From Desulfotomaculum sp. (GTDB lineage Bacteria; Bacillota; Desulfotomaculia; Desulfotomaculales; Desulfallaceae): DNA of 42,402 nucleotides. Below the pieces are notes generated by a model. That model worked only from the letters and a program-made list of their open reading frames with translations, did not search any database and had not been told where the DNA came from. Below, one piece after another: positions 21,774-31,768 of this stretch. Both the position numbers and the translations under genes were made by a program. Position 1 is the stretch's first letter. Each line of letters begins with the position of its first letter. The DNA is taken from contig JAENYQ010000023.1 of assembly GCA_016841675.1 (NCBI GenBank), forward strand, positions 1 to 42,402, given 5' to 3'.

Positions 21774-23417
21774 CTAGGCGTTTTTGTTCAGGATGGCTGC
21801 CAGGTCCTGATCAGGAGTGGTGATAGGCTTGATATTAAAATTCTTAACCAGGACATCCAAGACATTAGGCGATATAAATGCCGGCAGGCTGGGTCCCAGG
21901 TGGATATCCTTGATGCCCAGGTAAAGCAGCGTCAGCAGGATGGCTACCGCTTTTTGTTCGTACCAGGAAAGCACCATGGAAAGGGGCAGGTCATTAACTT
22001 CACAGTCGAAGGCCTTGGCCAGAGCCACCGCAATTTGGATTGCCGAGTACGCATCATTACACTGACCAATATCTATCAGCCTCGGAATCCCTTCGATATC
22101 GCCCAGCTTTAAATCAAAGAAACGGAATTTGCCGCAGGCCAGCGTTAAAACCACCGCATCCCGGGGCACTTTTTCGACAAACTCGGTGAAATAGTTGCGG
22201 CCGGGCTTGGCTCCGTCACAACCCGCCACCAGGAAAAAGTGTTTGATGGTGCCACGTTTGACGGCGTCGATAATTTTATCGGACACGCCAAATAGAGCGT
22301 TGCGCCCAAATCCAACCATCACCGTACCCTTGTCTTCATCGGCGGAGAAACCCTGCATACCCAGGGCTTTTTCAATTAGCGGGCCAAATTGGCCGTTTTC
22401 CAAGTGACTGACCCCCGGCCAGCCCACCAAACCGGTACTAAAGATGTTGTTCAGGTAGGACTCTTGGGGTTCCTGAATGCAGTTAGTGGTCATCAGGACG
22501 GCACCAGGGAAAGTGGGAAACTCTTTCTTCTGATTCTGCCAGGCCGTACCGAAATGCCCGTAAAGGTGAGCATATTTCTTTAAGCCGGGGTAACCATGGG
22601 CCGGCAGCATTTCACCGTGGGTGTATATATTGATGCCCTTGCCCTCGGTTTGCTGTAACAGGTCTGACAGATCTTTAAGGTCATGCCCTGATACAAGGAT
22701 ACAATGGCCTTTTTTATGCCCCAGGGGAACCTCGGTGGGCACTGGATGCCCGTACGTATCGGTATTGCCCTTATCCAGTAGTTCCAGGGCACGCAGATTG
22801 ATTTCGCCACATTTAAATACCAGTTTGAGCCAGTCATCCATAGTTAAGCCTTTATTGGCCAGCGCCGCCATCCCCTGGTGAATAAAAGCAAAAACCTGAT
22901 CATCCTCTTGGCCCATAATACGCGCGTGATCGGCGTATGCCGCAACCCCTTTGATGCCATATACCAAGATTTGCTGTAAGGACTGGATATCCTGGTCGGC
23001 CTCGCGGTCAATGACCAGCCCCATGTCCTCACCCTGTTTAATCAAACCTTCTAGGCTCGCTGCGGGCTCAAATGTTGCCGAGGGATCGGTTAAGTCTACT
23101 TTACCCCCTTTATTGGCCACCTTTTCTCTCATTTGTTTCCTGAGCTCTACGGTACGTCCTATCATACTCTGAAAGCGTTGGGGGTCAAAATCCACGTTGG
23201 TTAAAGTGGAGAAAACCGCCTTGACCGTAAACCCATTGACCTCCGGGTCTACTATGCCAAGACGGCGCCCCTCATCGGCATACAGGGACAATCCCTTGAC
23301 TGCGTGCAGCAATAGATCCTGTAGCGCCGCCACATCAGGCGTTTTGCCGCAGACACCGGCCACGGTACAGGCAAATCCTTTTACTGTTTGTTCGCACTGA
23401 TTACAAAACATACCCAT
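21774..23417 (-). CDS. hcp: Hydroxylamine reductase / hybrid-cluster protein
   Basis: A 547-residue hybrid-cluster protein. The N-terminal cysteines follow the class I spacing C-x2-C-x8-C-x5-C (F-C-N-Q-C-E-Q-T...A-C-T-V-A-G-V-C-G-K), which binds a [4Fe-4S] cluster in anaerobes. The hybrid cluster ligands lie in V-S-G-H-D-L-K-D, T-N-C-I-Q-E-P, V-A-G-C-D-G-A-K, L-A-C-G-K-F-R-F and D-I-G-Q-C-N-D. Hcp removes nitric oxide and hydroxylamine formed under nitrosative stress. The ATG at 23417 has AAAGGAG nine bases upstream. No Hcr reductase is adjacent, as usual in Clostridia. An inverted repeat about 120 bases upstream could be an operator. Confidence 0.95.
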   Translation of the reverse strand: MGMFCNQCEQTVKGFACTVAGVCGKTPDVAALQDLLLHAVKGLSLYADEGRRLGIVDPEVNGFTVKAVFSTLTNVDFDPQRFQSMIGRTVELRKQMREKVANKGGKVDLTDPSATFEPAASLEGLIKQGEDMGLVIDREADQDIQSLQQILVYGIKGVAAYADHARIMGQEDDQVFAFIHQGMAALANKGLTMDDWLKLVFKCGEINLRALELLDKGNTDTYGHPVPTEVPLGHKKGHCILVSGHDLKDLSDLLQQTEGKGINIYTHGEMLPAHGYPGLKKYAHLYGHFGTAWQNQKKEFPTFPGAVLMTTNCIQEPQESYLNNIFSTGLVGWPGVSHLENGQFGPLIEKALGMQGFSADEDKGTVMVGFGRNALFGVSDKIIDAVKRGTIKHFFLVAGCDGAKPGRNYFTEFVEKVPRDAVVLTLACGKFRFFDLKLGDIEGIPRLIDIGQCNDAYSAIQIAVALAKAFDCEVNDLPLSMVLSWYEQKAVAILLTLLYLGIKDIHLGPSLPAFISPNVLDVLVKNFNIKPITTPDQDLAAILNKNA

Positions 23418-23537
23418 GTTCAACAACTCCTTTGGCGATTATAACTCTATCCGGAAACTAGGTTTTCATTTTCTGATGGTGCCGCAACAGCGGCATGGAA
23501 ATCAAAAATGAAAATTAAATTCTGACATTAAATTTCC

Positions 23538-23654: not shown

Positions 23655-24178
23655 ATGATAATTTACCGAGTGAATATGAGTAATTTGAGCGTTAAAAAGG
23701 AAGACGTGCCCCAAGAATGGCAGCATTGGGGGGGGCGGGCGTTTACTTCAGCTGTTGTGGCCAAAGAGGTTGACCCGGCGTGTAATCCAATGGGAGCAAA
23801 GAATAAATTGGTATTTGCCCCGGGATTATTGTCAGGCACCAATGCCCCCAACTCCGGTCGTATGTCCGTGGGCGCCAAAAGTCCGCTAACTGGGACTATT
23901 AAGGAGAGCAATGTGGGGGGTTCCGCGTCTCAAAAGCTTGGCAAAATGAACATTAAGGGGATTATCATTGAAGGTCAACCCGCCGAGGACAAGTATTACA
24001 ACCCGCATGTAGACAAAGACGGCATTAAAATTCAGGAAGAAACCGCGTTGACAATATGGCCGCCGGTTTTACAGCCAAGGACGACCAGCTGCCGGAATTC
24101 TTCAGCGAGGATTTTCCCCCACATAATAAAACATGGGACTTTACCACCGAAGAGCTACAGCAAGTATGGAATTTTTAA
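23655..24178 (+). pseudogene. Aldehyde ferredoxin oxidoreductase relic (internal deletion)
   Basis: The 5' part (to about 24050) encodes an AOR N-terminus: W-G-G-R-A-F, D-P-A-C-N-P-M-G-A-K-N-K-L-V-F-A-P-G, S-G-R-M-S-V-G-A-K-S-P-L-T-G and G-G-S-A-S-Q-K-L-G. After about residue 131, at 24050, the reading frame switches and the AOR C-terminus appears: M-A-A-G-F-T-A-K-D-D-Q-L-P-E-F-F then P-P-H-N-K-T-W-D-F-T-T-E-E-L, ending at TAA 24176. Around 430-460 internal residues holding the Fe-S and most tungstopterin ligands are missing, so no activity is expected. A G9 run and AAGG precede the ATG. Confidence 0.85.
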
Positions 24179-24196
24179 CCACAAAGCGTTTACCTT

Positions 24197-24245
24197 CGGA
24201 TACAGAAAAACGGCGGTCGTATAGACCGCCGTTTTTCTGTATCCG
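24197..24245. terminator. 22-bp perfect stem terminator
   Basis: CGGATACAGAAAAACGGCGG continuing to GTC pairs perfectly with its complement around a five-base loop (GTATA). The stem contains A5 on the left arm and T5 on the right arm, so it can end transcripts from both sides: the AOR relic and the transposase-like gene. Confidence 0.85.
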
Positions 24246-24283: not shown

Positions 24284-25924
24284 TTATACTACATGCTGTT
24301 CTTTAAACAAACCAAGGGCAGTTAATATATCTTCCTGAACCGGTGACATACTGGTGATCGATTTAATCTCTTGGTCATCCAGTTGATTAATAGCCACCTT
24401 AATATCTTCAAGTAAATTAATGGCTTGCCGTACATCAAGGTCCAGCCCGGCCTGGGTAATCATTCTTTCCATAATTTTTTCCAGCATAACCCCCAGGACA
24501 CAGATAAACAGGTTGGCAGATATTTTAAGCTCAGCATATAACATGTTTTGCCATGGCTCAAAATTCTTTATCTCCCGGAATGAATCGCCCATAACGGCTA
24601 GGCTAGTGTATGCTTTTACTATTTCACCAGCGCGCAGGAATTCATTATTAGTTTCCAACAGGAACGACCCAGCCAGCCCGCTTTCCCGCGCAATCAGTTC
24701 ATCCCGGCGGCGGTAATTCAGCTCCTGGGTAGATTCGTTGTACCGCCAGTCAAAATATTTGCGGAAGTGACTGTCCTTTAACAGGGGTATGTTTCTGGCC
24801 CTAAGGCCGCGCTTTTCGCCCGCGACTTTTTGGATTACTTTAAGTTCGTTCTCTATTGCGTCAAGCCGCTCCCGAAGCAGCACTTCTGTCTGGTCGGCAA
24901 CATTAGGGTTGTAACATAAAAAATACCTTTTAGTGTCGTCGTTTCGTATTTCCTTAAACCATAAATCTTCGGCCACTTCTTGAAAACCTTTTTGATAAGA
25001 GTTCAGTTCACTGGAGATAAGGTCTCTTTCCAATTCAGTCATATGCTTACGACCAATAATATAATCATATCCCTGAGCGACTAATATCTCCATGCCCGGG
25101 TTATCCAGTACACTGCGGTCACCCACAAAAATACATTTGTCAATGCCAAAAGAATTTTTAAGGTGCTCAAGAATGTTTTTATATTCCCATTCCTCGGCTA
25201 TTTCATGTAGTATACTGTGCCCTAGGGGCATACCATCCCGGCTGACCAGCAAACCGAAATTAACCTTTTGCAACTCCTCTGATTCCCCAAGAACGTACTT
25301 GCCATATGACGTTAAACTAAGCTCTTCCCGGGGAGCGTGTTCAATAACTCCTGTAGTCAGTCGGCAAAACGCCAAATCAGGGTTTATTTGCATCAACTTT
25401 CTTAAGTTGATATAAATATTTTCTTCCAGCTCTTCTTTATACTCGGCCACGATATCCAGCGCTCGGTAAAAATGGTGCGGTGCAATCTCCTTGCCTTCCA
25501 GCGCCGGCATATAAAGGCAGTGATACCAGTCGCTAATGGCCTGTTTATGCTGAGGTTTTATAATCTGGTTGATGGCCATGAGTTCAACTAACAGCGAAAC
25601 ATTAATATTGCTCTCTACCCCGGCCAAGCTGTTGATAATGGGCTCAACACCAAGTATTTCCCATACTTTGTGAATGGCCAGAATTTCACCATAATGAAGT
25701 ATTTTTTTGGTCTCAATTTTATTAGAATGATTGGACGACACGCCGCAAATTTTAGACAGACCTGAAATCAAACCGCTTACCTTGTCCGGTGTCAGTTTAT
25801 CCAGGCTGCCAAGATTGGCAATAACCCGCTGTTTTACTTTGTTACCTTCCCTGTAATTCTCTATTAATTTGAGGTAGGTATACTCCTTGCCGTTGCTTTT
25901 GCTGGTTACCTTCCGAAAAAACAT
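24284..25924 (-). CDS. IS1634-like DDE transposase, probable catalytic Glu missing
   Basis: A 546-residue protein of the IS1634/IS4-superfamily type. The N-terminus (F-F-R-K-V-T-S-K-S-N-G-K-E-Y-T-Y-L-K-L, then G-S-L-D-K-L-T) is the family start. DDE residues: first Asp in V-S-R-D-G-M-P-L-G, second in F-V-G-D-R-S-V-L. The third region reads V-M-G-D-S-F-R-E-I-K-N, where the family normally has E-D-x-F-R-x-x-K, so the catalytic Glu appears to be Gly. I could not find flanking terminal inverted repeats. It may be a dead insertion sequence or a domesticated gene. It directly follows the AOR relic and its terminator. Confidence 0.8.
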   Translation of the reverse strand: MFFRKVTSKSNGKEYTYLKLIENYREGNKVKQRVIANLGSLDKLTPDKVSGLISGLSKICGVSSNHSNKIETKKILHYGEILAIHKVWEILGVEPIINSLAGVESNINVSLLVELMAINQIIKPQHKQAISDWYHCLYMPALEGKEIAPHHFYRALDIVAEYKEELEENIYINLRKLMQINPDLAFCRLTTGVIEHAPREELSLTSYGKYVLGESEELQKVNFGLLVSRDGMPLGHSILHEIAEEWEYKNILEHLKNSFGIDKCIFVGDRSVLDNPGMEILVAQGYDYIIGRKHMTELERDLISSELNSYQKGFQEVAEDLWFKEIRNDDTKRYFLCYNPNVADQTEVLLRERLDAIENELKVIQKVAGEKRGLRARNIPLLKDSHFRKYFDWRYNESTQELNYRRRDELIARESGLAGSFLLETNNEFLRAGEIVKAYTSLAVMGDSFREIKNFEPWQNMLYAELKISANLFICVLGVMLEKIMERMITQAGLDLDVRQAINLLEDIKVAINQLDDQEIKSITSMSPVQEDILTALGLFKEQHVV

Positions 25925-30322: not shown

Positions 30323-30796
30323 TTAATTTTGCTTAGCCCTTTGCATAATCTCTTGCAGAGTTTGTTCAGCCAGTTGATTAAACTGGTCTTTTGTATTTAC
30401 TGTTCCTACACTTTCCAGACCTTTGTTGAGCAGGTGATCGTAAATTGCTTGGTGCAATGCTTTTATGGCCAGTAATGAACAATGCTTTTTACCTTCCGGC
30501 AGCCCGCCAAGATAATCAACCACATCGTCATCCGTTAAGTCTAAAGCAAATTCAATATTTTTACCCATGGTTATTTCCGTAACCACGCTAGAGGTTGCAA
30601 TGGCTCCGGCACACCCATAAACCCTGAACTTTATGTCTTCTATAATGCTGTCCTTAATACGTACGGTAATCTCACATATATCACCGCACCCCTGTTCACC
30701 AATTTTACCATATCCATTGCCATCCTTAACCACTCCGACATTGCGAGGGTTTTCGAAATGCTCAATAGTTAACTCATTATAATCTAAGTCGCTCAT
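30323..30796 (-). CDS. NifU/IscU-type iron-sulfur scaffold protein
   Basis: A 157-residue protein of the NifU N-terminal/IscU family. The three ligand cysteines are in G-C-G-D-I-C, Y-G-C-A-G-A-I-A-T-S and K-H-C-S-L-L-A. The usual start D-Y-N-x-x-T-x-E-H-F-x-x-P-R-N-V-G is present. A scaffold on which Fe-S clusters are assembled with sulfur from a cysteine desulfurase. The G-C-G-D-I-C variant has an extra Cys and matches the anaerobe NifU-like subgroup. No iscS or nifS is adjacent. I start it at the ATG after GGGGTG rather than the GTG one codon upstream. The C-terminal tail is longer than in IscU and helical. Confidence 0.9.
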   Translation of the reverse strand: MSDLDYNELTIEHFENPRNVGVVKDGNGYGKIGEQGCGDICEITVRIKDSIIEDIKFRVYGCAGAIATSSVVTEITMGKNIEFALDLTDDDVVDYLGGLPEGKKHCSLLAIKALHQAIYDHLLNKGLESVGTVNTKDQFNQLAEQTLQEIMQRAKQN

Positions 30797-30905
30797 CACA
30801 GCACCCCATAATAGTTTTTATTTAAATTATAGGTTCATTATAAACATACGTCAACAATAACCGCACATTTTGCTTTAGCTAATTATGAGATCAAATAATC
30901 AGGTT

Positions 30906-30934
30906 TTGACAAGTAAAATTGGAACAAGTAAAAT
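30906..30934 (+). promoter_or_regulatory. Sigma-A-type promoter of the MOSC-ankyrin gene
   Basis: TTGACA (30906-30911), 17-base spacer, TAAAAT (30929-30934). The gene starts about 40 bases downstream after AAAGGAGAG. Confidence 0.75.
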
Positions 30935-30973
30935 ATTAGCAGATGTTCACGTTAATAATTCAAAGGAGAGACG

Positions 30974-31768
30974 ATGGGAAAAGTTTTGTCTATCAATATC
31001 GGCTCAACCCGGGGTATCGAAAAAACCAGTATAGCACAGGTAGAAGTTATTGAAGGATGGGGCCTTGAAGGGGATGCCCACGGCGGCGATTGGGATCGAC
31101 AGGTAAGCATTTTCCCAATAGAGGCTATGGATCAAGTGCCGCCGGAGAAAAAAGAGGAAGTGATCAACGGCGGATTAACTGAAAATTTCACCATCCAAGG
31201 GATTGAACAGTCAGAGTTGACCGCCGGCAAATATGTAGCTATTGGCGAATCTATAATTTTGGTGCTGCACATCGGCAAGGAAGAATTTAAAGAATATGGG
31301 CGGCCCTATATAGTTAGCCGTGAAGGCCGTTTTGGGCGGGTGTTCAAAGGCGGACCGGTGAAAGTTGGCGATACTGTATCAGTACTTGATTGGTCAAAGG
31401 ATTCATTTTTGCAGTGGGTACGGGAAGGCAACAACGAAATGGTCCAGTTTTTCTTAGCCTCGGGCATGAATCCGGATGTAAAGGATAACTATGACGCTAC
31501 GCCCCTGATGCTGGCAGCCAAAGACGGTCATGTCCAGGTAGCCCAAGCTTTGCTGGATAAAGGAGCAGATGTAAATGTTCAAAGCCATGACCTGGTAACA
31601 GCCCTGATGGTAGCCGCTTTCACCGGCCATGTTGATATAGTGCAAATGTTTTTAGCCGCCGGGGCCGACTATAACATGTGCAGCAGCAGCGGCCTGACAG
31701 CCCTTAAACTTGCTCAGGCAGGAAACCATCCCGCCGTAATACACCTGCTTGAGCAAGCGGGAGCATAA
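30974..31768 (+). CDS. MOSC domain fused to ankyrin repeats
   Basis: A 264-residue two-domain protein. Residues 1-140 are a MOSC-fold domain: it opens V-L-S-I-N-I-G-S-T-R-G-I-E-K, then G-L-E-G-D-A-H, Q-V-S-I-F, G-G-L-T-E-N-F-T-I and V-K-V-G-D-T-V. The Cys that most MOSC proteins carry after G-K is absent; here the segment is G-K-E-E-F-K-E-Y-G-R-P-Y. Residues about 142-264 are four ankyrin repeats (T-P-L-M-L-A-A-K-D-G-H, T-A-L-M-V-A-A-F-T-G-H, T-A-L-K-L-A-Q-A-G-N-H). MOSC proteins handle molybdenum cofactor sulfur; the ankyrin part suggests a protein partner. The fusion is unusual. It is transcribed from its own promoter. Confidence 0.92.
   Translation: MGKVLSINIGSTRGIEKTSIAQVEVIEGWGLEGDAHGGDWDRQVSIFPIEAMDQVPPEKKEEVINGGLTENFTIQGIEQSELTAGKYVAIGESIILVLHIGKEEFKEYGRPYIVSREGRFGRVFKGGPVKVGDTVSVLDWSKDSFLQWVREGNNEMVQFFLASGMNPDVKDNYDATPLMLAAKDGHVQVAQALLDKGADVNVQSHDLVTALMVAAFTGHVDIVQMFLAAGADYNMCSSSGLTALKLAQAGNHPAVIHLLEQAGA

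Follow-up and report, generated by a model that had tools for sequence, protein, structure and literature searches.

A cysteine-less MOSC domain fused to ankyrin repeats in Desulfotomaculia, encoded beside a second IscU-type scaffold gene

What is left for a MOSC domain to do if it lacks its usual cysteine and is joined to ankyrin repeats? The question is raised by a gene in a 42,402 nt stretch of DNA from Desulfotomaculum sp. (contig JAENYQ010000023.1), the whole of which is referred to as the window. The cysteine is called absolutely conserved across the MOSC family, where it ligates molybdenum (PMC5818509; PMC10637980), and its mutation abolishes the activity of crARC (PMC10637980). The relevant features of the window are as follows.

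30323..30799, minus strand: IscU2, a second and divergent Fe-S scaffold gene of the IscU/NifU_N type that encodes an additional conserved Cys (CGDIC) and points away from the fusion gene
30826..30854, minus strand: divergent promoter-like site of IscU2, TTGACG-17-TATAAT, a match as good as that of the fusion gene
30906..30934, plus strand: sigma-70-type promoter-like site of the fusion gene, TTGACA-17-TAAAAT, 11/12 match
30962..30970, plus strand: Shine-Dalgarno sequence of the fusion gene (AAAGGAGAG), assigned by reading, preceding the ATG
30974..31768, plus strand: MOSC-ankyrin fusion gene, 264 aa, stop included, a single open frame
30974..31390, plus strand: MOSC domain of the Cys-less subfamily, residues 1-139 (Pfam PF03473; fold match to YuaD, mARC1 and YiiM)
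31274..31285, plus strand: codons of G101-K102-E103-E104, with E104 at the place of the MOSC Cys (GKEC) of Cys-bearing relatives
31391..31765, plus strand: four ankyrin repeats, residues 140-264 (Pfam matches, predicted model, DARPin fold match)

The domain make-up given in the preliminary description, a MOSC domain joined to four ankyrin repeats, is confirmed by Pfam, by an AlphaFold2 model and by fold matches. PF03473 scores 26.2 bits on the fusion protein (curated cut-off 22.7) with partial coverage restricted to residues 34-96, and ankyrin families reach up to 79 bits. The model of the whole protein (pLDDT 91, pTM 0.82) folds residues 2-138 into a beta-barrel, followed by four helix pairs (142-261), consistent with tandem 33-residue ankyrin repeats. 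The ankyrin part of this predicted model resembles DARPins (Z about 24), which filled the Foldseek result list of the whole model. A separate model and search of the MOSC domain therefore followed, yielding YuaD (Z 14.1), mARC1 (13.0) and YiiM (12.5), with the best unrelated match at 9.0. Both its profile match and its fold make the fusion protein a MOSC homologue. PRK14499 (MoaC/MOSC) scores 88.5 bits on the MOSC part only, which is below the required >457, and the protein does not belong to this family.

No Cys is found anywhere in the MOSC domain. The usual one is indeed missing, as stated earlier: it is replaced by Glu (E104), giving GKEE in place of GKEC, and in a Cys-bearing relative the GKEC Cys falls on that of YiiM when the two are aligned. 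The defining residue was tested for and is lacking, and hence we do not class the fusion as a catalytic MOSC enzyme. The same holds for a whole clade of 37 MOSC sequences, which are mostly free-standing, some being fused to ankyrin repeats and some fused or adjacent to MogA. All three Cys of 20 Cys-bearing clostridial relatives are missing from these 37 sequences, and both sets are separated by a fully supported branch. The alignment of the Cys-less domains (n=32 sequences) contains 27 invariant columns and exhibits the signature HGGDWDRQVS and GK..FKE.GRPYIVSREGRFGRV. On a Cys-less MOSC-MogA relative PF03473 scores 31.8 bits and is covered nearly completely. Since the whole clade is Cys-less and mostly without ankyrin repeats, the fusion did not cause the loss of the Cys, which is older. 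The genome of the window also encodes a Cys-bearing MOSC, located in a moaA-moaC-MOSC-mobB cluster.

Complete-length homologues of the fusion with 59-85% identity are present in Peptococcaceae MAGs and in two isolates, Desulfotruncus arcticus and D. alcoholivorax. In the 113-genome set, in which the order is equivalent to the class (Desulfotomaculia), it occurs in seven genomes belonging to family f1 (G000, G001, G006, G007) and family f4 (G025, G027, G029). An eighth genome (G004) contains a decayed copy. An assembly error joining two frames, one of two objections raised beforehand, is ruled out by the seven genomes carrying the complete-length fusion. The other, that the architecture might be common, is rejected as well: no fusion was found in the 113 Desulfotomaculia genomes beyond f1 and f4, none in about 380 other Bacillota genomes, and no further one by a pattern scan of 84,980 genomes, whose reach is close relatives and which could therefore overlook MOSC-ankyrin fusions that arose independently in other groups. 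Moreover, we found no account in the literature of a MOSC-ankyrin architecture, in line with the preliminary description, nor of MOSC together with NifU. Both halves are under purifying selection, with dN/dS values (NG86) of 0.13-0.18 for MOSC and 0.19-0.23 for ankyrin, both <0.25. The MOSC tree is poorly resolved within the Cys-less clade, and single and multiple fusion events are thus indistinguishable; in the ankyrin tree the fusions group on one side with weak support (79/78). MOSC-ankyrin is a real, rare and conserved architecture in a little-noticed Cys-less MOSC clade.

The promoter proposed earlier at 30906-30934 holds as a promoter-like site. Its hexamers are identical in G001 and a similar site is present in G006, although such sites are overall no commoner in the region than by chance (5 found, 3.9 +- 2.2 expected). 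A search for an operator shared by IscU2 and the fusion gene gave nothing firm in the intergenic region, which can be aligned among the nearest genomes only.

The best clue to the function of the fusion is the neighbouring IscU-like scaffold gene, which was missed in the preliminary description. IscU2 scores 119 bits with PF01592 (NifU_N) and does not reach the thresholds of the IscU/NifU equivalog models. It contains the cluster-ligand residues of a scaffold, three Cys and one Asp (C/GD/C/HC motifs). The housekeeping IscU belongs to an iscR-iscS-iscU-mnmA cluster at another site. Orthologues of IscU2 stand out as a separate set in 19/113 genomes (E below 1e-50, next matches after a gap at 1e-41), and all 19 share the extra Cys (CGD[IVM]C), which is missing from the housekeeping copies.

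IscU2 flanks the fusion gene in G000, G001 and G006, lies ~1.7 kb off in G007 and flanks the decayed copy in G004. It was found in 11 of the 13 genomes with the fusion/ankyrin family and in 8 of the 100 without (p 9e-9, uncorrected for relatedness). An obligate pairing is argued against by intact fusions whose IscU2 is truncated ahead of the last cluster-ligand Cys (G006), reduced to an adjacent pseudogene fragment (G027) or absent (G025). In G029 the fusion is likewise intact and IscU2 is not linked to it. The opposite case is G004, where the fusion has decayed, and six genomes have IscU2 and lack both MOSC and ankyrin. Elsewhere, IscU2 is accompanied by Mrp, Di-Nase and MinD-type genes (G032), by MoeA (G029) or by aldehyde ferredoxin oxidoreductase (G037, G038).

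Some records deserve separate mention. The IscU2 of Desulfotruncus alcoholivorax (L008 5448-5798, minus strand) stops just ahead of the last cluster-ligand Cys next to an intact fusion, and broken Mg-chelatase-like fragments adjoin it. A frame-shifted IscU2 remnant lies downstream of the fusion in L009 (6996-7219, minus strand), a record labelled Actinobacteria whose genome is placed in the order of the window.

The two halves of the fusion also occur apart, each beside IscU2. Free ankyrin genes are flanked by IscU2 in G012, G013 and G015 in convergent order, in contrast to the divergent order of the fusion; in G051 and G056 IscU2 is co-directional with the free Cys-less MOSC genes that it flanks. 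In G111 a free ankyrin gene lies right next to a free Cys-less MOSC gene. One clade (86/98) comprises the fused repeats together with the free ankyrin proteins; they share A175, S204, D206 and S237, which are missing from the other small ankyrin proteins of the order. The free proteins next to IscU2 (L065-L067) thus resemble the fusion in ankyrin clade and neighbouring gene, differing by an N-terminal extension of their own where the fusion has its MOSC domain. Lipoprotein-type small ankyrin proteins of family f6 (L059, L062) have an N-terminal motif like that of the free cytoplasmic ones.

Within the order, a NifU-like or Di-Nase (PF02579) gene is located <=3 kb from 15/23 Cys-less MOSC or fusion loci compared to 0/18 Cys-bearing loci (p 9e-6, uncorrected for relatedness). 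With about two NifU_N and about four Di-Nase genes per genome, chance proximity should be under about 2% per locus. None of the 18 Cys-bearing loci lies beside IscU2, a clade ankyrin gene or Di-Nase/Mrp/MinD genes. Outside the order, a Desulfosporosinus operon (L018 3883-9331) encodes in sequence a DUF134-like protein, Di-Nase, Mrp, Cys-less MOSC, Di-Nase, MinD, MinD and NifU. Its two MinD proteins are MinD-type ferredoxin ATPases, and the operon is a candidate system in its own right. Nickel hydrogenase genes adjoin the fusion in G025 (L010 6792-9141) and stand in line with MOSC and NifU-like genes in G095 (L075 5059-8459). Taken together, the Cys-less MOSC clade is clearly tied genomically to Fe-S/metal-cofactor assembly.

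Compared to canonical MOSC proteins (YuaD, YiiM, YcbX/mARC and the paralogue of the same genome at C134), the fusion shares the beta-barrel fold and the GD.H, W.RQ and EN motifs. It lacks the Mo-ligating Cys, the two further Cys found in the clostridial type and moa/mob neighbours, and has ankyrin repeats in place of the 3-alpha bundle or MOSC_N. Like MOSC-MogA and MoaC-MOSC fusions (PRK14499) it joins MOSC to a partner domain, and the MOSC-MogA proteins seen here are Cys-less too; their partner, however, is a Moco-synthesis enzyme instead of a docking repeat. Some of the genes for Cys-less MOSC and IscU2 are surrounded by Di-Nase, Mrp/NBP35 and MinD-type genes as known from the Desulfovibrio ORP/MrpORP Fe-S system, whose Di-Nase/Mrp protein MrpORP binds Fe-S clusters and transfers them to apo-proteins (PMC6345978). 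In contrast, the locus of the window has no Di-Nase, Mrp/NBP35 or MinD-type genes, and MOSC is unmentioned in PMC6345978. Three Di-Nase genes are found elsewhere in the genome and none in the window, which does not contain the ORP gene set (Orp3/4/5/8/9).

Because both halves recur beside the IscU2 gene, the fusion probably assists some spore-forming sulfate reducers in making metal-sulfur cofactors. More precisely, we see about an even chance that it is a non-catalytic MOSC carrier or adaptor working in a specialised module for metal-sulfur or Mo-cofactor assembly, with the ankyrin repeats as docking arm. The Cys-less barrel keeps its fold and several pocket residues and has no thiolate to ligate Mo. 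For this reason it may bind a pterin/Mo or metal-sulfur ligand loosely and pass it on, doing no chemistry itself. The repeats would dock the fusion to another protein, of which the neighbouring IscU2 or a client of IscU2 is the likeliest; that IscU2 is the direct partner is inferred, and several intact fusions have a decayed IscU2 beside them or none. YiiM and mARC require structure beyond the barrel to close their Moco pocket (PMC5818509, PMC10637980). As the ankyrin repeats start directly after the last barrel strand, they could also cap the MOSC pocket. The scaffold role suggested in the preliminary description fits such docking, while the alternative of a sensor found no support beyond being possible.

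Could the fusion instead still be a Moco-dependent enzyme, i.e. an N-hydroxyl reductase like YiiM/YcbX with ankyrin repeats as accessory? The MOSC fold would agree with that, yet the Mo-ligating Cys is missing in 37/37 clade members and crARC with a changed Cys is inactive (PMC10637980), making it highly improbable; a YiiM-like identity was rejected for the lack of the Cys. Less remote, though still rather unlikely in our view, is that Cys-less MOSC takes part in Moco biosynthesis, e.g. by carrying molybdopterin together with MogA/MoeA, that the ankyrin repeats dock to Mo/W enzymes or MoeA, and that the link to IscU2 reflects shared clients needing both Moco/W-cofactor and Fe-S. Fusions of Cys-less MOSC with MogA exist in either order (L024-L028 and KSB1 L022); a Cys-less MOSC gene also directly follows mogA in the G288 operon moeA-moaA-moaC-mogA-MOSC-mobB, and such genes are found in Moco operons of Dehalobacter-like and Desulfobacterota genomes. 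The MoeA and aldehyde ferredoxin oxidoreductase genes adjoining IscU2 point the same way, as do N71, which is invariant, and R42: their counterparts in an alignment with YiiM are modelled as Moco contacts (PMC5818509). In the order of the window, however, Cys-less MOSC genes are seen outside Moco operons and it is the Cys-bearing paralogue that is inside one; moreover, hydrogenase and Di-Nase neighbours require no Moco.

A regulatory scaffold or sensor unrelated to cofactor assembly, with the IscU2 neighbourhood resulting from hitch-hiking, seems improbable. It would explain why the fusion persists where IscU2 is lost (G025, G027), and there is no DNA-binding or signalling domain to contradict or support it. 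Hitch-hiking is nevertheless hard to uphold because the linkage recurs in at least three families with differing gene orders and for each half separately. The independence of this linkage rests on three families (f1, f8, f16) and the differing gene orders, and it may be partly inherited, as most linked fusions belong to one family.

Extending the carrier/adaptor reading to the whole clade, we tentatively suggest, at somewhat below even odds, that Cys-less MOSC proteins are separate non-enzymatic carriers in metal-sulfur/Mo-cofactor assembly, forming with IscU2 and ankyrin proteins an undescribed module that became fused in some sulfate reducers. A conserved Cys-less clade separates the MOSC fold from MOSC chemistry. 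In 2002 MOSC domains were reportedly proposed to be part of metal-sulfur cluster biosynthesis, and the clade revives this proposal with specific, testable partner genes. How anaerobes assemble Fe-S clusters is poorly documented, and a specialised IscU served by an adaptor of its own would add a new component.

Apart from the fusion locus, the window contains a truncated aldehyde ferredoxin oxidoreductase gene (23655-24224, plus strand; 189 aa, AFOR_N domain only). It is followed on the opposite strand by a 546-aa ORF (24284-25924) that appears transposase-like by eye and has no Pfam match. A hybrid-cluster (prismane) protein gene is located at 21774-23426 on the minus strand (567 bits).
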